64,000 nucleotides of DNA from contig NZ_SADE01000004.1 of NCBI RefSeq assembly GCF_004005845.1, positions 62,001 to 126,000 of the forward strand, in the 5' to 3' direction. Under the pieces are notes generated by a model. It was not told the DNA's origin and did not search any database. It worked only from the letters and a program-made list of their open reading frames with translations. This DNA is from Hwanghaeella grinnelliae. Lineage in GTDB: Bacteria; Pseudomonadota; Alphaproteobacteria; UBA8366; Aestuariispiraceae. How positions within the stretch are numbered: the stretch's first letter is position 1; every line of letters begins with the position of its first letter. The position numbers were made by a program, and so were the translations under genes. Positions 3,178 to 16,044 of the stretch are shown one piece after another.

Positions 3178-4149
3178 ATGACTGATCAGATAGTCCACAT
3201 TCGGTGTGGGTCGGATATTCGGGAAAGCCTCAGAACCGCTGGGTTCGAGGGTGATTTTCTTGAATGGGGCGACCCCGTATGCCGCGGACCTGTTCCTGCA
3301 GGGATGCAGGATGATGACTACCGGCGCATGCGGGCCCGGTTTATTTCCAATTGGGATATCTTGTCGGAAACCAGGGCGATGGATCGCCTTCAGTCTGAAT
3401 CGAAAGCACTCGATACGCTGGAGAAATACGACCGTATCATCCTATGGTTCGAGCACGACCTGTATGACCAAGCCGTCCTGATCGACTTGCTGTCGCGATT
3501 GAGTGAAAAGATCGACTTGCTGGACCGAATGCGGTTGATGACGGTCGATCGATTTTCAGGCGAAGAAAGGTTTGTAGGCTTCGGCCAATTGTCGCCTGAT
3601 CAATTGCGTAGTTTGCAAGGCCTGGATGTGCCGGTCTCCGAGGACATGATCCGTCAGGCGCAGCGGGCTTGGGCAGCGTTCCGCGCTGATACGCCGGAAG
3701 CGCTGCATACTTTCACGGTGGAAGAAGGGGACGCCCTGCCGTTCCTGCGGTCGGCGATGCGACGGCATTTGATGGAATTGCCGTCGACGCGGAATGGATT
3801 AAGCATGACCGAACGGCTGATGCTGGACGCCGTGGCCGATGGTGCAAAGACCGGTGTCGATACTTTTCGCAAGATGTACCGCGAAACGGAACCCGCACCC
3901 TTTCTGGGGGATGTAATGTTCTTCCACGATATGGCGGGCTTGATCGACGCGACCCAACCGGCGCTGACCGCGACCGAAGATTGGCGGGATGAATTCGATC
4001 TCACCGATTTTGGCAGGCAACTGCTGGCCGAAGAAGCCGATTGGGTTCGGACCAACGGAATTGATCAATGGCGGGGCGGTGTCCACTTGACCGGCAATGG
4101 GCCGGTCTGGCGATGGTCCCCGGACGAAGATCGTCCCGTCTTGGCATAG
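3178..4149 (+). CDS. DUF1835 domain-containing protein
   Basis: Soluble protein of 323 residues. The N-terminal ~120 residues match the DUF1835 pattern: VHIRCGSDIRESL at the start, FLEWGDPVCRGPVP near 30, and IILWFEHDLYDQAVLI near 90. The C-terminal part (about 190-310) has a winged-helix-like layout with LTDFGRQLLAEEADW near the end, a pattern also seen in relatives. The biochemical role of the family is not established. It is convergent with the kinase gene downstream, with a 42-bp gap. Confidence 0.75.
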   Translation: MTDQIVHIRCGSDIRESLRTAGFEGDFLEWGDPVCRGPVPAGMQDDDYRRMRARFISNWDILSETRAMDRLQSESKALDTLEKYDRIILWFEHDLYDQAVLIDLLSRLSEKIDLLDRMRLMTVDRFSGEERFVGFGQLSPDQLRSLQGLDVPVSEDMIRQAQRAWAAFRADTPEALHTFTVEEGDALPFLRSAMRRHLMELPSTRNGLSMTERLMLDAVADGAKTGVDTFRKMYRETEPAPFLGDVMFFHDMAGLIDATQPALTATEDWRDEFDLTDFGRQLLAEEADWVRTNGIDQWRGGVHLTGNGPVWRWSPDEDRPVLA

Positions 4150-4191: not shown

Positions 4192-5772
4192 CTATCTCGG
4201 CAGGCTGAGTTCGGCGCGCAGGCCTCCTTCGGGGCGGTTCCGGAGGCGGACATCACCGCCATGGCTGCGCGCGATGGAACGACAGATCGACAGGCCAAGA
4301 CCGACACCGCCGGTATCTCTTCCGCGGGCCGGGTCCAGCCGGACGAAAGGATCGAATGCGCGGTCCAAATCGTCTTCCTTCATACCGGGGCCGTCGTCCA
4401 GGATAACGAGTACGACGTTCTCTCCGGGTGTTTCGATATGAACCTCCACCGAGGTGCCGAAGCGAACGGCGTTGTCGACCAGATTGCGCAAGGCCCGTTT
4501 TATGGCGATTGGACGGCAGCGGATTGCGGGTGGGTCGTCCGCCGGCACGAAGGTAACGGTGGTGTCCGCGCCGGCTTTTTCATCGACGATCGCCTCAGCA
4601 AGGGCATTCAGGTCAGAAGGCACCGCTGCTTCGGTTTCAGCTTCCGATCGGATGAAGGCCAGGACTTCCTCGGTCATCGCTTGCAGCTCGTCCAGGGTGG
4701 CGATGAACCGCTCACGGTCTTCCTCGTCTTCCAACATTTCGGCACGCAGGCGCAGTGTTGTAAGCGGGGTGCGCAAGTCGTGCGACAGCGCCGCAAGCAT
4801 GTGCATGCGGTCGTTCACGAAGCGATCGACTCGATCGCGCATGGTGTTGAAGGCGGCGATCAGATTGCGGATATCCCGTGGCCCTGTTTCCTCTACTGGC
4901 TGTGGCCGGTCGCCGCGCCCAACGGCGGTTGCCGCTGCGGTTAGATCGCGCAGCGGCCGCATCGTGCGCCGAACCAGCCATGTAACGATGACGATAATGG
5001 CAATGGCGGATACCAGGAAGGAGATCATCCCCGGGCCGCCCCAGTTTCGGGGTGGAGGACGTAGAATGCTGGCAACGTTCAACCAATTTCCGTCGTGAAG
5101 CCGGATGCTGGCCCGCAACCCAATTCCGGGGCCGCCGCGATTGCGGTTCCAGCCGTGGTGGTCCCAATCTTTATGGTCCCAATCATCATCGTCCCAATGA
5201 TCGTCATCGTCATCGCCATGGTCGTCGTCTTTTTCATCTGAATCGCGTTGCTCCCCCTGGTCGTCTCGATCCAAACCGGGATCAAAAAACCGGCGGTCCT
5301 TGCCCCAATCAGCCCGGAACGCGAAACGGATATTCTCACTTGGACGATCCAAATACTCAGCCAACCGACCCTGGATGATCCGCTCGATATGACCTTCAGA
5401 TTCTTGCAAAGACACGGCGGCCTGGCTGTCTATTCGGAATAGAAGGTCCCGCGTTGTCGCCGCCGCAAGAACGTTGTCATGCAGGTTCGGTGACGTGGAT
5501 TCCACCAGGCGTGTTACCGCGGTGATCCGATCGGCGACCAAATTCCGGACGGTTTCGCGCGCGGCAAGCCTGCGTTCGTCCCACAGTATAGCGAAACTGA
5601 TTGCGTGTGAGACGATCAAGGCCAGCAGGATAAGTACGATCAGCCGTGCGGCTAGGCTGTGGGACCAAAAACCACCCCGTAGTGCCCTATGGCCGCCATC
5701 GCGGTGACGGGCCCGGCCCAACCAGGAAAACCTTGGCGGCTGTTTCCGGTTTTTTTTCGCGGGGCCGGTCAT
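4192..5772 (-). CDS. Sensor histidine kinase with Asp/His/Trp-rich periplasmic loop
   Basis: Inner-membrane two-component kinase of 526 residues from this start. TM1 is at about 41-64 and TM2 at about 250-267, enclosing a periplasmic sensor. HAMP follows, then the H-box SHDLRTP (His331), an N-box (NLVDNAVRFG) and the G boxes DDGPGM and GVGLGLSI. The sensor carries an extremely acidic stretch at about 169-208 in which Trp recurs every five residues among Asp and His. The chosen ATG overlaps the regulator stop as ATGA, so the pair is translationally coupled; an upstream in-frame start at 5814 would overlap the regulator by 46 bp and is less likely. The EF-hand gene across the divergent promoter suggests a cation signal such as Ca2+ or Mg2+. 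The cation is inference. Confidence 0.9.
   Translation of the reverse strand: MTGPAKKNRKQPPRFSWLGRARHRDGGHRALRGGFWSHSLAARLIVLILLALIVSHAISFAILWDERRLAARETVRNLVADRITAVTRLVESTSPNLHDNVLAAATTRDLLFRIDSQAAVSLQESEGHIERIIQGRLAEYLDRPSENIRFAFRADWGKDRRFFDPGLDRDDQGEQRDSDEKDDDHGDDDDDHWDDDDWDHKDWDHHGWNRNRGGPGIGLRASIRLHDGNWLNVASILRPPPRNWGGPGMISFLVSAIAIIVIVTWLVRRTMRPLRDLTAAATAVGRGDRPQPVEETGPRDIRNLIAAFNTMRDRVDRFVNDRMHMLAALSHDLRTPLTTLRLRAEMLEDEEDRERFIATLDELQAMTEEVLAFIRSEAETEAAVPSDLNALAEAIVDEKAGADTTVTFVPADDPPAIRCRPIAIKRALRNLVDNAVRFGTSVEVHIETPGENVVLVILDDGPGMKEDDLDRAFDPFVRLDPARGRDTGGVGLGLSICRSIARSHGGDVRLRNRPEGGLRAELSLPR
5149..5268 (-). repeat. Low-complexity Asp/His/Trp repeat inside the kinase sensor domain
   Basis: On the plus strand GTCCCAAT occurs at 5161, 5176 and 5191, an exact 15-base period. 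It encodes a five-residue periodicity in which Trp residues at 193, 198, 203 and 208 of the kinase are spaced by Asp and His (for example WDHKDWDHHGW). The preceding ~24 residues are almost all Asp, Glu, His or Lys. Because the period is a multiple of three, copy-number change would lengthen or shorten the loop without a frameshift. Confidence 0.8.
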
Positions 5773-6575
5773 TGCGCTTCCACCGTGCAAGACAGGACAT
5801 ATCCGCCGCCCCAAACCGTCTTGATGATTTCAGGGTTCTTCGGGTCCCGCTCCAGCTTCTTCCGAAGACGGCTGACTTGGTTGTCCATACTCCGGTCGAA
5901 CGGGGTGGAATCCCGGCCACGCGTAAGGTCGAGCAGCCGGTCGCGGGTCATCACGATGCCGGGATGACTTAGCAGGACGGAGAGCAACCGGAATTCTCCT
6001 GTGCTCAGGTTGAGGAGTGTTCCGTCTTCGCCCCGCACTTCGCGACGTTCCGGGTCGAAGACCCAGTGATCGAAACGAATTGCCTGACTGTCCGACAGTG
6101 CGGTTTCCGCCTGTGGCAGGTTGTTTGACCGTCGTGTCACCGCCTTGATGCGGGCGAGCAGTTCCCTGGGGTTGAAGGGTTTGGTCAAATAGTCATCGGC
6201 ACCGATTTCCAAGCCCACGATACGATCGGTATCTTCCGCCATCGCGCTTAGGAAGATGACCGGTTTCTCGGATGTCTCCTGGATATGCCGGCACAGGCTC
6301 AATCCGTCTTCACCCGGCATCATGATGTCGAGGACGATCAAGTCGATCGCCTTTTCCTTCAGGGCGCGGCGGGCTTCGGCCGCGTTCGCCGAATGACTGA
6401 CCCGCATGCCGTTCTTCGCCAGGTACTTGGCCAGCAATTCGCGGATTTCCCGATTGTCGTCGACAATCAGGATATGCGGTCCTTCGATCCTCTGATCCGG
6501 GCTCTGCACGGTTTGCCTCACATCGGTATCACATACGCCCTGCCATCCGGTTGCAGGAAACGGGCAGTCGGACAT
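5769..6575 (-). CDS. OmpR/PhoB-family response regulator
   Basis: Cytoplasmic response regulator of 268 residues. The receiver domain (about 33-150) has the acidic pair VDD at 38-40, the phosphoacceptor Asp83 in VLDIMMP and the conserved Lys in LTKPF. The C-terminal winged helix (about 170-265) shows LSTGEFRLLSVLLSHPG and the typical ending RLRKKLERDP then WGGGYVL. The first ~30 residues look non-conserved, so translation may begin further in. It is the first gene of a two-gene operon with the kinase. A tandem heptamer at 6607-6623, just upstream, has the 10-bp phasing used by OmpR-type regulators. Confidence 0.93.
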   Translation of the reverse strand: MSDCPFPATGWQGVCDTDVRQTVQSPDQRIEGPHILIVDDNREIRELLAKYLAKNGMRVSHSANAAEARRALKEKAIDLIVLDIMMPGEDGLSLCRHIQETSEKPVIFLSAMAEDTDRIVGLEIGADDYLTKPFNPRELLARIKAVTRRSNNLPQAETALSDSQAIRFDHWVFDPERREVRGEDGTLLNLSTGEFRLLSVLLSHPGIVMTRDRLLDLTRGRDSTPFDRSMDNQVSRLRKKLERDPKNPEIIKTVWGGGYVLSCTVEAQ

Positions 6576-6606
6576 TACCCGACCCTTCGCTGCAAGCGTT
6601 CAGGAA

Positions 6607-6623
6607 AACTGTAACAAACTGTA
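6607..6623. promoter_or_regulatory. Candidate OmpR-type operator: tandem AACTGTA repeat
   Basis: AACTGTA occurs at 6607-6613 and again at 6617-6623, so the period is 10 bp, one helical turn. OmpR/PhoB regulators bind such head-to-tail half-sites. The site lies in the 177-bp divergent region between the response regulator gene and the EF-hand gene and could control both. No binding data are available from sequence alone. Confidence 0.45.
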
Positions 6624-6752
6624 TCAGAATCCCCTTCCGACAGATCTTGCGACCATTATCCCACCCGATCGGCATAGTTCTGCGACAATTGGGGTGTTTT
6701 TTATGCTCACTGATTTCAACCGCACTACGGAAGCGAATGAAAGGATAGTGCC

Positions 6753-7337
6753 ATGGAAAACAACGAGAACACTGGAAGCACCGATAACAACGATAAATCC
6801 TCTGCACGGCGCCACAAGGGCCGGGGCGCAATGTGGATGGTCGTCCTGGCCGGCACCGCAGCCGCCCTTGGCACGGCGGCCTTTGTCGGTCATGCGGTCG
6901 CGTCCGGCAACGGATATCAAGGTTGTCACCGCGGTGGTCATGAGCGCGGCTTTGGCGGCCATCATGGCGGCCCACGCGGTGAAATGATCTTCCGTACTTT
7001 CGACACCGACAAGGACGGCACGGTCACCGCGGCGGAAATCAACGCCGAGACCGAACGCCGGATGAGCGGCAACGATGCCAATGGTGACGGTGCACTGTCC
7101 CTGGAAGAGTTCCAAGGGGTTTGGATGGAGATGCTGCGCAACCGCATGGTCGATGCTTTCCAACGCTTCGACGATGACGGCGACGGCGTCATCACCAAAG
7201 CGGAAGTCGACGAAAAGACATCCTGGATGATGTCGCGCATGGATCGCGACGGTGACGGCAAGATCACGCGCGAAGAACAGCGTCCGCGATTCCGTCGTGA
7301 CGACGATCGGTTCGAAGGGCCCGAAGACGACGACTAA
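6753..7337 (+). CDS. Membrane-anchored EF-hand Ca2+-binding protein
   Basis: Protein of 194 residues with four EF-hand loops: DTDKDGTVTAAE (84-95), DANGDGALSLEE (108-119), DDDGDGVITKAE (140-151) and DRDGDGKITREE (164-175). All four keep Asp at position 1, Gly at 6 and Glu at 12, so all look able to bind Ca2+. One hydrophobic segment at about 27-50, after a basic N-terminus, should anchor the protein with the EF-hands in the periplasm. A Gly/His-rich linker (CHRGGHERGFGGHHGG, about 58-73) joins the two parts and could bind transition metals. It is divergent from the kinase/regulator operon, which suggests it is a target or an accessory sensor. Confidence 0.85.
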   Translation: MENNENTGSTDNNDKSSARRHKGRGAMWMVVLAGTAAALGTAAFVGHAVASGNGYQGCHRGGHERGFGGHHGGPRGEMIFRTFDTDKDGTVTAAEINAETERRMSGNDANGDGALSLEEFQGVWMEMLRNRMVDAFQRFDDDGDGVITKAEVDEKTSWMMSRMDRDGDGKITREEQRPRFRRDDDRFEGPEDDD

Positions 7338-7420: not shown

Positions 7421-8308
7421 TTACTTCCGCGGAACCGATGCGTCCGCCATTTCTACCGCTAAATCGAGGAAGGCGCGGATCGCGCTTAAACGCCTGCGTC
7501 CCCGCAGGCAGACCGCATATTCCGTAACCTCAATTGTGCTGGGCCCCAAGGGCAGGGTAACAAGACCGGGATGGGGTTCGTGTTCGCTGGCAATAACGAT
7601 GCCGGCACCCAATCCGGCAGCGACGGCGGCGCGAACGGCTTCCCGCGATTCCACTTCCAACACGTCGTTCAGGGCCAACCCGGTTTTCACGGCCGCCCGT
7701 TCGAACAGATCTCGCGTGACCGACTGCCGCTCTCGCAGGACCAAGGCGTGGCCGGAGAGTTCCTTTAGATTGACCAACTTCTTTTTCGCTAGGGGATGAT
7801 CCCGGTGTGCGACGAGTACCAGCGGCGCCCGCCGGAACGGTACCGCATGCAGATGGTTGTCGATCGGCACGTTCGAGAGCAGCGCAGCGTCGACTCGATA
7901 GTCCCGTAAGTCCGCCAATACCGATTCCATGTTACCCATGGTGATCTTCAGCCCCAAGCCGGGAAAACGGGCGCGAAGCCCGGCCAGCAGGTCCATTGCG
8001 TCGCCGGGGCTGTCCGCGCCGACTGCAAGTGTTCCGTGGGCTAGGTTTTCCGTACCGCTCAACAGAGCTTCGGCCTCTTCCTGCAGGGAGGTCAGCCGGT
8101 TCGTTACCTCGGCGAGCGACCGACCCAAATCCGTCAATTGAACGCCGCGGCCACGCCGGTCGAACAATCGAACGCCATATCCTGCCTCCAAGGCTTTTAC
8201 CTGAGATGACAGCGTCGGTTGTCCAACATTCAACGCGCGGGCCGCTTTGGAAAAACTGCCCTCGGTCGCGACTGCATGGAACGCCCTTAGATGGGTAACA
8301 TTAATCAT
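7421..8308 (-). CDS. LysR-family transcriptional regulator, likely of phnWX
   Basis: Typical LysR protein of 295 residues. The N-terminal helix-turn-helix is visible as LRAFHAVATEGSFSKAARAL then QPTLSSQVKALE (about 6-40), followed by a linker helix and the effector-binding domain (about 92-290). It is divergent from phnW with about 145 bp between the starts, the usual arrangement for a LysR activator and its target operon. 2-Aminoethylphosphonate or a downstream product is a plausible inducer, by analogy with other phnWX-linked LysR proteins. This is inference. Confidence 0.92.
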   Translation of the reverse strand: MINVTHLRAFHAVATEGSFSKAARALNVGQPTLSSQVKALEAGYGVRLFDRRGRGVQLTDLGRSLAEVTNRLTSLQEEAEALLSGTENLAHGTLAVGADSPGDAMDLLAGLRARFPGLGLKITMGNMESVLADLRDYRVDAALLSNVPIDNHLHAVPFRRAPLVLVAHRDHPLAKKKLVNLKELSGHALVLRERQSVTRDLFERAAVKTGLALNDVLEVESREAVRAAVAAGLGAGIVIASEHEPHPGLVTLPLGPSTIEVTEYAVCLRGRRRLSAIRAFLDLAVEMADASVPRK

Positions 8309-8313
8309 GTAAC

Positions 8314-8332
8314 CTATTTATCATACCAATAG
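8314..8332. promoter_or_regulatory. Candidate LysR box between regulator and phnW
   Basis: CTATT (8314-8318) and AATAG (8328-8332) form an inverted repeat with a 9-bp spacer in an AT-rich stretch of the divergent promoter. This contains the T-N11-A geometry common to LysR sites. The element lies right next to the lysR start and could serve autoregulation and phnW activation. Weak evidence on its own. Confidence 0.35.
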
Positions 8333-8452
8333 ATAAGATCAATAATATGCATTGGACGGATGAATGGGCGACTGGCATATCCCTGCTTACCGATTGATAG
8401 AGGGTGCCCGATCCTTTCACCTCGCGCCCTGTTAGAAACGAATGGCGGAACC

Positions 8453-9625
8453 ATGACCAAGACACTGAAAAAGGCTGCTGAAACCTACACGATGGGGCGA
8501 AAGCCAACAGCCGACGAGCCGCTGCTGCTGACACCCGGTCCCCTGACGACGACCGCAAGCGTGAAACGCGCCATGCTGAAGGATTGGGGGTCCTGGGATG
8601 AGCCGTTTCGGGACCTGAACGCCGACCTGCGCCGACGCTTGGTGGATATCTCAGGCGGTGGCGACGACTACACCGCCGTGCCCCTTCAAGGCAGCGGGAC
8701 TTTCGTTGTCGAGGCCATGCTGGGCACTTTCATTCCCCGGGGGGGAAAGGTCCTAATGCTCGCCAATGGCGCCTATGGCGAACGGGCGATCAAGGTATGT
8801 GAGCGGATGGGCCGTGAAACGGTCGCCTATCGCACGGCGGAGGACGAAGCGCCGTCGGCCGAGAAGGTCGCGGAATTCCTGCAGGATGAGACCATCGACT
8901 ATGTGTTCATGGTCCATTGCGAAACCACGAGCGGCATTCGCAACCCGGTCGAGGCGGTAGCTGCCGTCGTCGCCGAAAAGGGGCGCCGCCTTTTGGTCGA
9001 CGCGATGAGTGCTTATGGCGCGCTGCAACTAGACGCGAAAGTCGTCCAATACGATGCGATTGCCGCAAGCGCCAACAAATGCCTGGAGAGTGTGCCTGGC
9101 ATGGGTTTCGTCATCTGTAACAAATCCGTCTTGGCCGAGCGCGAAGGAAACGCACATTCGGTCAGCCTCGATCTGTTCGATCAGTGGTCTTATATGGAAA
9201 AGACGCGGCAGTGGCGATTCACACCGCCGACTCATGTCATTGCGGCCTTCCACCAGGCAATGCTGGAATACGAGGCCGAAGGCGGCGCCCCGGCGCGGGG
9301 GGCGCGATACGAGGTGAATTGCGAACGCCTCGTCAACGGGATGCGGGCCTTGGGTTTCCGAACTTTCCTGGACGATGCCAATCAGGCGCCGATTATCGTC
9401 TGCTTTCATGCCCCTGAAGATCCCAATTATGACTTTGCCGATTTCTACGGCCGCTTGGCGAAACGTGGCTATGTCATCTATCCGGGCAAGCTGACAGCGG
9501 TTGAGACCTTCCGGGTTGGCTGCATCGGGTCGATGGGGCCAAGCGACGTGGAGGGCGTCGTCGCGACGGTGGCTGAAGTATTGGCTGAGATGGGTGTGGC
9601 CGATGGACGATCGCACGCCGCCTGA
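8453..9625 (+). CDS. phnW: 2-aminoethylphosphonate--pyruvate transaminase
   Basis: PLP enzyme of 390 residues that transfers the amino group of 2-aminoethylphosphonate to pyruvate, giving phosphonoacetaldehyde and alanine. The N-terminus has PLLLTPGPLTTTASVKRAM and DWGSWDEPF, hallmarks of PhnW. Lys209 in SANKCLESVPG is the predicted PLP Schiff-base lysine, and VDAMSAYGA holds the cofactor-binding Asp. I chose the ATG at 8453 because the upstream in-frame extension to 8360 has no conserved sequence. phnX follows after 85 bp, so the two give the complete route from aminoethylphosphonate to acetaldehyde and phosphate. Confidence 0.95.
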   Translation: MTKTLKKAAETYTMGRKPTADEPLLLTPGPLTTTASVKRAMLKDWGSWDEPFRDLNADLRRRLVDISGGGDDYTAVPLQGSGTFVVEAMLGTFIPRGGKVLMLANGAYGERAIKVCERMGRETVAYRTAEDEAPSAEKVAEFLQDETIDYVFMVHCETTSGIRNPVEAVAAVVAEKGRRLLVDAMSAYGALQLDAKVVQYDAIAASANKCLESVPGMGFVICNKSVLAEREGNAHSVSLDLFDQWSYMEKTRQWRFTPPTHVIAAFHQAMLEYEAEGGAPARGARYEVNCERLVNGMRALGFRTFLDDANQAPIIVCFHAPEDPNYDFADFYGRLAKRGYVIYPGKLTAVETFRVGCIGSMGPSDVEGVVATVAEVLAEMGVADGRSHAA

Positions 9626-9710
9626 TCGGTTTCACATAGGGAACAGGGTAAAGTATCGCGGTTGAAAGGCCCATTGGCCTGCCGCCTGTCTGATTGAAAG
9701 GGTATATCAA

Positions 9711-10541
9711 ATGTCCAACGGGACCGCTGGCAACTTCACTGGACCTGTCGAAGCAATCATCTTCGACAATGCCGGTACCATCGTCGACTTCGGCTGTATC
9801 GCGCCGGTCATGGCCTTCGTCGAAATATTCAAACGGCGCGACGTCGATATCACGGTCGCGGAGGCGCGCGAACCAATGGGGGCGGCCAAGCGCGACCACA
9901 TTGTGCAACTGGTTGCCATGCCGCGCGTGGCTGAGGCCTGGAAACAGGCACATGGCGATGCGCCGACGGAAGCGGATGTCGATGCGATGTATGCCGACTT
10001 CCTGCCTTTGCAGGTTCAGTGTCTGACGGACTACTCAACGGTCATTCCTGGGACGCCGGACTTGTTTGCCAATTTGCGCAAGGAGGGTGTCGGCATCGCG
10101 ACTACCACGGGGTATCCATCCGAAGTGATGGATGTGTTGTCGGCGAAACTCGCGGAACAAGGTATCGTGCCCGATGCCATGGTATGCGCAAGCGACGTCG
10201 CGCATGGCCGGCCTTATCCGGACATGTGTTTGACCGCCGCGATGAAGGCCGGGGTGAAGAATGTGAAGGCCTGCGTTAACGTCGATGACAGCGCGCCTGG
10301 CTTGGAAGCGGGGCTTGCCGCCGGCATGTGGACCGTGGGGCTCGCCTGCTCGGGAAATGAAGTCGGTTTGTCCTACGATGAATGGACGGCGCTGTCGGAT
10401 GGGGAGCGGGACACGCATTTCGCACGCGCCCGCAAAGGTCTCGACGCGACCGGTGCACATTACGTTGTGCCGACGATCGGCGACCTTGCCCCTGTATTGG
10501 CGGACATCAATCGCCGCCTTGCCGCAGGGGAAAAGCCCTAA
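9711..10541 (+). CDS. phnX: Phosphonoacetaldehyde hydrolase (phosphonatase)
   Basis: HAD-superfamily enzyme of 276 residues that cleaves the C-P bond of phosphonoacetaldehyde to acetaldehyde and phosphate. The nucleophile Asp19 sits in IFDNAGTIVDFG; phosphonatases have Ala at the +2 position as seen here. Lys60 in REPMGAAKRDHI is the Schiff-base lysine that defines the phosphonatase cap. Later motifs include TTGYPSEVMD and NVDDSAPGLEAGLAAGMWTVG. It pairs with phnW upstream and ends just before a strong intrinsic terminator. Confidence 0.95.
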   Translation: MSNGTAGNFTGPVEAIIFDNAGTIVDFGCIAPVMAFVEIFKRRDVDITVAEAREPMGAAKRDHIVQLVAMPRVAEAWKQAHGDAPTEADVDAMYADFLPLQVQCLTDYSTVIPGTPDLFANLRKEGVGIATTTGYPSEVMDVLSAKLAEQGIVPDAMVCASDVAHGRPYPDMCLTAAMKAGVKNVKACVNVDDSAPGLEAGLAAGMWTVGLACSGNEVGLSYDEWTALSDGERDTHFARARKGLDATGAHYVVPTIGDLAPVLADINRRLAAGEKP

Positions 10542-13634: not shown

Positions 13635-14600
13635 TCACACGACACCCAGGCGATAGCCTATGAATCCCATATAGACTACGTAGCCGGCCAGAAGCAGGGA
13701 AGCTTCGACTTTGGCGATGCGCTTGTCACGCCACAGCATGGGAATGACCACGCCCGCCGCCGCCAACATCACCCACATATCGATGGACTGGATATCGGGC
13801 GATATCGCCAATGGTTTGATCATCGCGGTGATGCCCAGGATAGACAGGACATTGAAAAGGCAACTGCCCAGGACGTTGGCAATGGCGACATCTGAATGTC
13901 CGCGTATCGCGGCGACAACGGTCGCGGCGAGTTCCGGCAGGGAGGTGCCGAGCGCCACAAGTGTCAGCCCAATGATTGATTCCGGCACGCCGAAAGCGCG
14001 GGCGATCGACGTTGCGCCCTCGACCAACAGATGGGCGCCGCCGACAAGTCCCGCCAAGCCGACCAGAAGGAACGCGGCGATGACCAGGGCATTCTCCGGG
14101 ACGTTTTCGGTTTCTTCGACTTCCCGTTCGTGGAGTGCCGCCGAGGCGACGTCGCGTTTGTCCATGAAATAGGACCAGGTCATATAGGCGAGCAGTAGCG
14201 ACACCATGATGGCGCCGTGCCAAGCCTCAATAACGCCGTGCCACCCCAAGACCGTCAGCAAAACGATAGACAGGAACATGGCCGTTGCGTCGCGGCGAAC
14301 GACGCCCGCGCTGCAGGTCAAGGTCGTGATAACGCCACCAACGCCCAGAATGAGCAGAATGTTTGCTATATTGCTGCCGACGACATTGCCGATCGCCAAA
14401 TCCGGCTGGTCTGCCAGCGCTGCCTGCACCGTGACCATCAGTTCCGGTGCCGATGTGCCAAAGCCGACAACGGTCAGACCGATCATGGCGGGTGAGACCC
14501 CGATCTTCATTGCCAGGCCAACGGCGCCGCGCAATGCCAATTCCCCACCCAAGGTCAAGACCACAAGGCCCGCGACAACTAACCCAATATCGATATGCAT
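13635..14600 (-). CDS. Calcium/sodium antiporter (YrbG-like, CaCA family)
   Basis: Integral membrane exchanger of 321 residues with about ten helices. Two inverted-repeat alpha motifs are clear: GFGTSAPELMVTVQ with IGNVVGSNIANILLILG in the first half, and ALGTSLPELAATVVA with IANVLGSCLFNVLSILG in the second. These acidic-plus-Asn motifs bind Ca2+ and Na+. The ATG at 14600 gives the family length; the in-frame extension to 15113 is antisense to the alcohol dehydrogenase gene and is not real. Transcribed toward the divergent hydrolase cluster end, it stands alone. Confidence 0.93.
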   Translation of the reverse strand: MHIDIGLVVAGLVVLTLGGELALRGAVGLAMKIGVSPAMIGLTVVGFGTSAPELMVTVQAALADQPDLAIGNVVGSNIANILLILGVGGVITTLTCSAGVVRRDATAMFLSIVLLTVLGWHGVIEAWHGAIMVSLLLAYMTWSYFMDKRDVASAALHEREVEETENVPENALVIAAFLLVGLAGLVGGAHLLVEGATSIARAFGVPESIIGLTLVALGTSLPELAATVVAAIRGHSDVAIANVLGSCLFNVLSILGITAMIKPLAISPDIQSIDMWVMLAAAGVVIPMLWRDKRIAKVEASLLLAGYVVYMGFIGYRLGVV

Positions 14601-14877
14601 ACAGCAATCCGTGCCCTTGTTCGGGCTTAGAAACTTCGTCGTGCCGCACCGGTCATGCCCATATGAACCAATGCGTCCCCCCGCGACAATTCTGTGTCTG
14701 AAGTAAGGGTGCCACGTGCCGCTTGCAAGGTCTGCAACAAAATCATTGGTTTGGGATGCACCTGCGCTACGTGGGAAAGCACTACACCGGGCTTGCAGGT
14801 TGGCGGAGGTCGATGCAGGTTTTAACAGGGCCACACTGCAGGAACGGTATGGCTGAAACCCGGGAGAGGACGAGGGA

Positions 14878-16044
14878 ATGACGATAGCGCTGCAGGGTAA
14901 TTGGAGCTTTCCGACACGGATTCTGTTCGGGGCTGGACGCATCGGTGAATTGCCAAAGGCCTTGAAAGGCGCGCGTGTCGAACGCCCCTTGATCGTTACC
15001 GATTCGGGTCTGCGGAACCTGCCGGCCTTCACCGCGATGGAACAGATGCTGAAAGATGCCGGTGTCGAAGCGACCGTGTTCAGCGATGTAAAAGGCAACC
15101 CCATTGGCGGCAACGTCCATGATGGCGTTGCAGTTTACCGGGAAAACGATTGCGACGGCGTCATCGCCGTCGGTGGCGGCAGTGGGCTGGACGCCGGCAA
15201 GGTAATCGCCTTGATGGCGGGGCAAGACTGCCCGATTTGGGATTTCGATGAGACGCCCGGCGCCTGGAAAAAAGCGGATGCCAGCAAGATCCCGCCGATC
15301 ATAGCCATCCCGACGACCGCCGGTACGGGGTCGGAGGTCGGCTGTGCCGGCGTCATCGTCAACGAAGAAACCAAGGTGAAGGTCATCATCTTCCATCCGA
15401 AGATGATGCCTGCAACGGTAATCGCGGACCCGGAACTGACTGTCGGTCTGCCGTCCAAGATAACCGCCGCCACCGGGATGGATGCGCTGACCCATTGTAT
15501 CGAGGCTTATTCGGTACCGATTTTCCACCCAATGGCCGACGGGATCGCGTTGAACGGCATGTATCTCATTGAGCAGGCGCTACCGATCGCCTGCAGGAAT
15601 GGCGCTGACATCGATGCGCGCTCCAAGATGCTGGCCGCGGCGAGCATGGGGGCGGTTGCCTTCCAAAAGGGCTTGGGCGGCGTACACGCGATCGCGCATG
15701 CGGTGGGCGGCATATACGACACGCATCACGGCCTGACCAATGCAGTGTTGCTGCCCTATGTCCTGGCGTTCAACCGCGAGGCCATTGCCGACAAGATCCC
15801 GTTGTTGGCGCAGACGCTCAACCTGCCGCGTCACAATTTTTCCGGTGTCCTGGATTGGGTGCAGGGGTTCAGCGCCAGTTTGGGTATTCCAGCCACATTG
15901 GCCGAAATCGGGGTGGATACCGACCATGCCGACGAAGTGGGGCAGACCGCGTCGAAAGATTCTTGCGCGCGCGGCAATCCACGGCGGGTCTCGGCCGACG
16001 ACCTGCGAGGGTTGTTCGTCAATGCGGTCGAAGGGCGTCTCTAG
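14878..16044 (+). CDS. Iron-containing (group III) alcohol dehydrogenase
   Basis: Metal-dependent NAD(P) alcohol dehydrogenase of 388 residues. The nucleotide-binding segment is AVGGGSGLDAGK (about 98-110). Metal ligands lie in MDALTHCIEAY and GGVHAIAHAVGG with the following DTHHGL, as in the Fe-ADH family. PTTAGTGSEVG is the usual phosphate-contact loop. The natural substrate is uncertain: acetaldehyde from phnX, phosphonoacetaldehyde, or a 4-hydroxybutyrate-type substrate are all possible. It ends 9 bp from the convergent P450 gene. Confidence 0.9.
   Translation: MTIALQGNWSFPTRILFGAGRIGELPKALKGARVERPLIVTDSGLRNLPAFTAMEQMLKDAGVEATVFSDVKGNPIGGNVHDGVAVYRENDCDGVIAVGGGSGLDAGKVIALMAGQDCPIWDFDETPGAWKKADASKIPPIIAIPTTAGTGSEVGCAGVIVNEETKVKVIIFHPKMMPATVIADPELTVGLPSKITAATGMDALTHCIEAYSVPIFHPMADGIALNGMYLIEQALPIACRNGADIDARSKMLAAASMGAVAFQKGLGGVHAIAHAVGGIYDTHHGLTNAVLLPYVLAFNREAIADKIPLLAQTLNLPRHNFSGVLDWVQGFSASLGIPATLAEIGVDTDHADEVGQTASKDSCARGNPRRVSADDLRGLFVNAVEGRL

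Follow-up and report, generated by a model that had tools for sequence, protein, structure and literature searches.

In this study, we analysed a 64,000-nt stretch of Hwanghaeella grinnelliae contig NZ_SADE01000004.1 (the window, to which all positions refer unless a locus is named; host genome 5.3 Mb in 7 contigs) and found a three-gene unit in which a sensor histidine kinase with an acidic/His-rich loop and an OmpR-type response regulator face a divergently transcribed gene for an EF-hand protein. We consider it fairly probable that this unit is an extracytoplasmic module of the cpxP/cpxRA kind, with a cation-binding loop on the kinase, a regulator acting at three sites and an EF-hand output that closes a feedback loop. 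Comparison of sequences among relatives supports the three-gene unit, a predicted operator, an exchangeable gene in the slot opposite the regulator, and a co-variation in composition between the kinase loop and the slot protein. In such a module, the kinase would read the periplasm through a PAS/Cache-like domain bearing a disordered, cation-binding acidic/His loop, and its signal would be a cation or a cation-dependent envelope state; the regulator would bind at three positions within the shared promoter, controlling the operon that encodes it as well as the EF-hand gene opposite; and the exported EF-hand protein would bind Ca2+ or a similar ion and may feed back on the kinase, either by ion buffering beside the loop or by contacting the sensor as CpxP does. 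The direction of regulation, the identity of the ion and the feedback are what we infer, and the EF-hand protein is probably both output and feedback partner. To our knowledge, little is understood of how bacteria perceive extracellular Ca2+ and related ions, and a partner has been established for few bacterial EF-hand proteins; the comparative evidence presented here connects one EF-hand family with a single kinase family by way of a conserved predicted operator.

The regulator and kinase lie on the minus strand and face the plus-strand EF-hand gene across an intergenic region of about 180 bp (6576-6752), in the arrangement that a preliminary description of this DNA had claimed and that the positions of the open reading frames (ORFs) and the Pfam domains bear out. 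The kinase (4192-5772, minus strand; 526 aa) comprises a first transmembrane segment, an extracytoplasmic sensor, a second transmembrane segment, and HAMP, HisKA and HATPase domains, as read from Pfam (HAMP, HisKA, HATPase_c) and the orthologue alignment. Its most likely start is the ATG at 5772, which forms an ATGA overlap with the regulator stop, rather than the TTG at 5814, and the same 4-bp overlap is also present in several relatives. The regulator (5769-6575, minus strand; Pfam Response_reg and Trans_reg_C) consists of a receiver and a winged helix, and its true start may sit inside this frame, as the receiver begins near residue 33. The EF-hand protein (6753-7337, plus strand; Pfam EF-hand_1, 1.6e-20) has 194 aa, with a hydrophobic helix, a Gly/His-rich linker, four EF loops and an acidic C-terminal tail. 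The best NCBIfam models for the kinase were EnvZ (232.6 bits, cut-off 415), RstB and, in third place, CpxA (158.4 bits, cut-off 486), all far under their cut-offs, and for the regulator neither OmpR, the best model (257.2 bits, cut-off 331), nor CpxR (181.4 bits, cut-off 341) was passed.

The pairing of this kinase with an EF-hand gene is conserved among loci with closely related sensors. In a first survey, 59 genomes were searched with the kinase and the EF-hand protein, and 20 regions were fetched from 19 genomes at the best kinase matches; the EF-hand gene was divergent from the regulator in 13 of these 19 genomes, and the remaining six carried a shrunken EF frame (L069), another small secreted protein (L071, L074, L077), a protein of the LTXXQ (CpxP/Spy) family (L078) or no clear slot gene (L080). 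The shrunken frame (L069:5200-5436, minus strand) encodes a 78-aa EF-hand remnant beside an intact operator and reflects either decay or an assembly error. A scan of named genomes gave 80 kinase loci, only 7 with an EF-hand gene in the slot, and most of the others were more distant kinases. A search with the sensor only, over 386 genomes of the class, matched 274, many just over the HAMP end, and 40 regions were fetched. Sensor scores of at least 150 bits were reached by 32 loci, two of them cut by contig ends, and an EF-hand gene, defined by two or more loop motifs, occupied 26 of the 30 readable slots, the window included (the exceptions being L069, L071, L074 and L085). The sensor profile had been built from 16 of these 32 loci, and among the 16 outside it the EF-hand gene was present in 14 of 15 readable slots. 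Between 75 and 150 bits, it was present in 8 of 46 loci. Two EF-hand genes were less evident, one seen weakly by Pfam (L194) and one found by eye (L208). The conserved synteny that the preliminary description had proposed to look for in other genomes is therefore found. The kinase of a same-genus genome (L061) is 54-55% identical.

The shared promoter contains three elements that we predict to be regulator-binding sites. Site 1 (6610-6625, plus strand) is TGTAAC-N4-TGTATC, with half-sites 10 bp apart, and corresponds to the direct repeat that had been proposed earlier as the shared operator. Element 2, GACAGATCTTGCGACC (6639-6654, minus strand), is inverted relative to site 1 and places GCGAC at +39 from it, and element 3, CATAGTTCTGCGACA (6673-6687, minus strand), places GCGACA at +72. 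The intergenic stretches of 32 EF loci were aligned on the best TGTAWC-N4-TGTNNC and compared with 200 shuffles; one further EF locus (L097) was excluded because its slot gene was too distant. Site 1 matched at least 9 of the 10 consensus positions in 28 of the 32 loci (shuffled mean 0.19, maximum 2), GCGAC occurred at +38 to +44 in 21 (mean 0.11, maximum 2) and at +70 to +77 in 20 (mean 0.21, maximum 2). The direct repeat is thus real and conserved, and this footprinting of relatives argues that it behaves as an operator. It is also kept where the slot holds another gene. Pfam recognised LTXXQ proteins at five loci (L078, L212, L214, L217, L231), a sixth locus (L215) was counted through likeness to L212, and seven loci carry slot proteins to which we gave the label 'PepSY-like', with no Pfam match above cut-off for any of the six scanned. 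Site 1 was present in all six LTXXQ loci and in six of the seven 'PepSY-like' loci, which suggests that control is retained while the slot gene changes. GCGAC was rarer there (elements 2 and 3 in 3 and 4 of the 7 'PepSY-like' loci and in 1 and 0 of the 6 LTXXQ loci). The operator is near-unique in its own genome: TGTAWC-N4-TGTRWC matched twice (reversed control 1), the second match falling within a coding frame, and AANNTGTAWC-N4-TGTNNC matched once (control 0), while TGTMKC-N4-TGTMKC, a variant to which the window site does not conform, matched twice against 8 in the control. These few matches rule out a large regulon at the stringency used, at which weak sites could escape.

The composition of the kinase loop follows that of the slot protein. 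This comparison covered 60 of the 78 loci with a sensor score of at least 75, after dropping loci without a credible slot gene (a signal-like start and a gap below 350 bp, or EF-hands) or with a loop shorter than 15 residues; one locus counts twice, as L089 and L228, having come from two collections. Loop and slot-protein Asp plus Glu content correlated with rho 0.67 (phylogenetic generalised least squares, PGLS, on the kinase-core tree, p 3.8e-6; p 1.2e-5 with kinase core, regulator and GC as covariates), and loop and slot-protein Met content with rho 0.45 (PGLS p 2.8e-6), a relation kept with covariates, at p 0.0011 without the Photobacterium locus and at p 0.0067 without three gammaproteobacteria. 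The controls gave no significant relation for the regulator (Asp plus Glu p 0.83, Met p 0.68), the neighbouring gene (p 0.58 and 0.60) or the Asp plus Glu content of the rest of the sensor (p 0.28). Within 28 EF loci, the acidity of the C-terminal tail of the EF-hand protein tracked that of the kinase loop (PGLS p 0.0065), whereas that of the EF body did not (p 0.65). The p-values are uncorrected, with about 30 correlations and regressions in all; the two main ones survive a factor of 30, but that of the EF tail does not.

This co-variation bears on whether the EF-hand protein is merely a target, for example a periplasmic Ca2+ store, with no feedback on the kinase. The shared operator alone would be enough for co-regulation, and we give this simpler account a considerable chance, somewhat short of even, but the tracking of loop and slot composition, down to the EF tail, suggests that kinase and slot protein are coupled, as the proposed module would have it. 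In Photobacterium (L099) and Celerinatantimonas (L101), the chemistry is copper-like on both sides: Met makes up 24% and 14% of the kinase loops and 21% and 10% of the slot proteins opposite, respectively. By way of illustration rather than test, a kinase-family member with a Met/His loop on a Ruegeria plasmid adjoins a multicopper oxidase and cytochromes, and another member, on a Dinoroseobacter plasmid typed as conjugative, adjoins a cation diffusion facilitator. The plasmid-borne members (L240 and L241, on Roseobacter plasmids) have Met/His loops and lie within metal-handling islands. We tentatively speculate, while thinking it rather doubtful, that the family uses a two-part ligand code, in which a disordered kinase loop and a divergent secreted binder of matching ligand chemistry (an Asp/His loop with an EF-hand protein, a Met/His loop with a Met-rich protein) are retuned together, so that the ion could be predicted from sequence. 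If this were true, the secreted EF-hand protein would act as co-sensor to a bacterial histidine kinase.

The loop itself (about 5125-5286, minus strand) is inserted ahead of a conserved GL.AS..L.DG.WLN strand. Its best 30 residues include 23 Asp, Glu or His. Of the 108 window ORFs of 150 aa or more in all frames, the runner-up has 16, and shuffling the sensor region 5000 times never reached 23. The preliminary description had called this an extreme Asp/His stretch, which holds within the window but not within the family: acidic loops occur in all 16 aligned orthologues (18 to 38% Asp plus Glu, against 9 to 14% in the remaining sensor), the window loop ranks 7th among 78 in Asp plus Glu fraction, and the best stretch is denser in two relatives. 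The loop sequence is not conserved among the 16 aligned orthologues, and its length and sequence vary widely in the family. The Trp at every fifth residue, presented earlier as a motif, is the product of a 15-bp tandem DNA repeat (2.9 copies, 5159-5202), next to which lies a 6-bp tandem repeat (5.0 copies, 5200-5229), and the period is missing from the aligned relatives' kinases. These repeats, together with the variable length and sequence, would fit neutral low-complexity growth of the loop by DNA slippage in a sensor that works without it; but neutral growth leaves unexplained why an acidic/His-rich make-up persists without sequence conservation and why it tracks the slot gene and not the neighbouring gene, and we regard it as unlikely. 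Returning to a functional loop on a periplasmic sensor, the AlphaFold model of the sensor (predicted local distance difference test score, pLDDT, 77) has a long helix and a small sheet with the loop unstructured (pLDDT below 50 over most of construct residues 136-178). Foldseek found no match of this model to solved structures at E 0.001, and the VIA comparison of the fold gave middling scores (best Z 9.3, to an integrative WalK-YycH model; RisS 6.4, TlpB 5.8) that no more than hint at a PAS/Cache-type domain.

In the EF-hand protein, we located the four complete EF-hands and the Gly/His-rich linker previously noted: the 12-residue loops are at 7002-7037, 7074-7109, 7170-7205 and 7242-7277, the linker at 6924-6980 and the acidic C-terminal tail at 7278-7334, all on the plus strand. 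The membrane anchor given in the preliminary description is a possibility: the N-terminus carries a single hydrophobic helix, and most relatives' proteins start with an apparently ordinary Sec signal, as judged by eye. The genome holds no second match to this protein. The loops are separated by linkers of 12, 20 and 12 residues, a pattern exact in 24 of 33 EF slot proteins. Thr or Ser occupies loop position 9 in 105 of the 127 EF loops of the set, and Pro occupies position 2 in one of the 127 and in none of the window protein's four, a pattern that looks Ca2+-type rather than lanmodulin-type. A lanthanide or other trivalent ion as the physiological ligand nevertheless deserves mention, because the same genome encodes a pyrroloquinoline quinone (PQQ) alcohol dehydrogenase (L236, G000:C1:589480-591099; 772 bits) with a D-Y-D motif, which we take to be typical of lanthanide-dependent XoxF. 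The EF-hand protein also resembles lanmodulin in having four EF-hands in fewer than 200 residues. The 12-residue linkers inside its EF pairs are likewise as in lanmodulin, whose adjacent EF-hands are reported to lie 12-13 residues apart and whose hallmarks include Pro at position 2 (PMC10232371). Unlike lanmodulin, the window protein lacks that Pro, has the Thr/Ser preference at position 9 and a 20-residue middle linker between the pairs, and scored 38.5 bits with the NCBIfam model LanM (cut-off 135); calmodulins were the closest structures to its model, LanM ranking lower (E 0.49). Membership of LanM was rejected on the missing Pro and the bit score, and we consider a trivalent ion very improbable.

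In cpxP/cpxRA and zraP/zraSR, the gene of a small periplasmic protein likewise diverges from the two-component system with which it belongs. The preliminary description had stated that known systems do not combine the elements of this locus, which is too broad: those two systems share the divergent layout, and some relatives have LTXXQ proteins in the same slot. ZraP/ZraSR resembles the unit here in that the gene for a metal-binding periplasmic protein faces away from the sensing system to which it belongs; it differs in the NtrC type of its regulator, ZraR, and in ZraP, which is not known as an EF-hand protein. The likeness to CpxP/CpxRA (of E. coli and, by published description, Sinorhizobium meliloti SMb21560-21562) takes in the kinase, the OmpR-type regulator, the small periplasmic protein, the slot gene divergent from the operon and the shared predicted operator, and the form GTAAC-N5-GTATC here is close to the published CpxR motif GTAAA-N5-GTAAA (PMC2912261). 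The differences are the EF-hand protein in place of LTXXQ, the long disordered acidic/His loop, and the kinase and regulator scores, which fall far below what CpxA and CpxR require. A CpxP-like design is suggested by the layout and by the LTXXQ proteins in the slot of relatives, and since no LTXXQ match was found in the EF-hand protein or elsewhere in its genome, the EF-hand protein may fill the CpxP-like role. CpxP is described as touching CpxA and as being displaced by high salt (PMC4160245).

The same likeness favours a general Cpx-like envelope-stress system that would respond to misfolding or to a damaged membrane. The EF-hand protein would then be an output of chaperone-like kind, stabilised by Ca2+, and the loop no more than a means of tuning electrostatics. 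LTXXQ genes in the relatives' slot and CpxA as third-best NCBIfam match of the kinase agree with it, as does the reported response of S. meliloti to loss of tolC, in which expression of a Cpx-like trio rises 69-fold (CpxP-like), 14-fold (CpxA-like) and 27-fold (CpxR-like) (PMC2912261), a response that we count in favour of the proposed module too. Envelope stress alone leaves unexplained the tracking of loop and slot composition and the Met-rich loops beside copper-type genes, as on the Ruegeria plasmid, and we hold it to be a strong contender that falls a little short of an even chance.

Several observations weigh against the cation-sensing module as proposed. The loop DNA carries slippage-type repeats, and the specificity of the co-variation is imperfect, as loop Asp plus Glu also correlates with that of the kinase core (p 0.026) and loop Met with Met in the remaining sensor (p 0.012). 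The loop difference between EF and non-EF loci is weak (PGLS p 0.029), and acidic loops, which also stand beside LTXXQ slots, are no specific mark of an EF partner. The window EF-hand protein is not an LTXXQ relative, and a simple scan gave no sigma-70-like promoter. Of 13 further genomes in the same family, 8 are without a close kinase orthologue, which makes the three-gene module patchy.

Other reported systems share single features with this module. In Pseudomonas aeruginosa, the Ca2+-dependent two-component system CarSR/BqsSR is required for regulating the EF-hand gene efhP, but efhP (PA4107) appears in the available parts of that report as one of several CarSR-regulated genes and is not described there as a divergent partner (PMC11559002). 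CaBP (CCNA_02838) of Caulobacter vibrioides is a periplasmic EF-hand protein of an alphaproteobacterium, differing, by its published account, in having three EF-hands and in lying next to an extracytoplasmic function (ECF) sigma factor (PMC13171946). UzcRS of Caulobacter was rejected as the same system, as its reported motif CATTAC-N6-TTAA differs (PMC8963506). The literature searched, consisting mainly of abstracts and passages, held no published description of the arrangement, which does not establish its absence from print. The unit is of a known kind, a two-component system with a periplasmic partner, here with an EF-hand slot protein and an acidic/His-loop kinase.

In the surroundings of the unit, a frame at 13635-15113 (minus strand), 6.3 kb from the EF-hand gene, presumably encodes a Na+/Ca2+ exchanger-like protein; no homologue was found in 76 flanking loci of relatives scanned, many of them 6-9 kb long, and a conserved link to a Ca2+ antiporter was dropped on this ground. 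On the other side, a DUF1835 protein (3178-4149, plus strand) adjoins the kinase, and its position is retained in the same-genus genome. Beside the EF-hand gene, the region 7421-10541 contains a LysR regulator (294.6 bits with an aminoethylphosphonate-associated model, cut-off 341.1) and frames that we take to encode a PhnW-like transaminase and a PhnX-like hydrolase, and is probably a 2-aminoethylphosphonate catabolism cluster.

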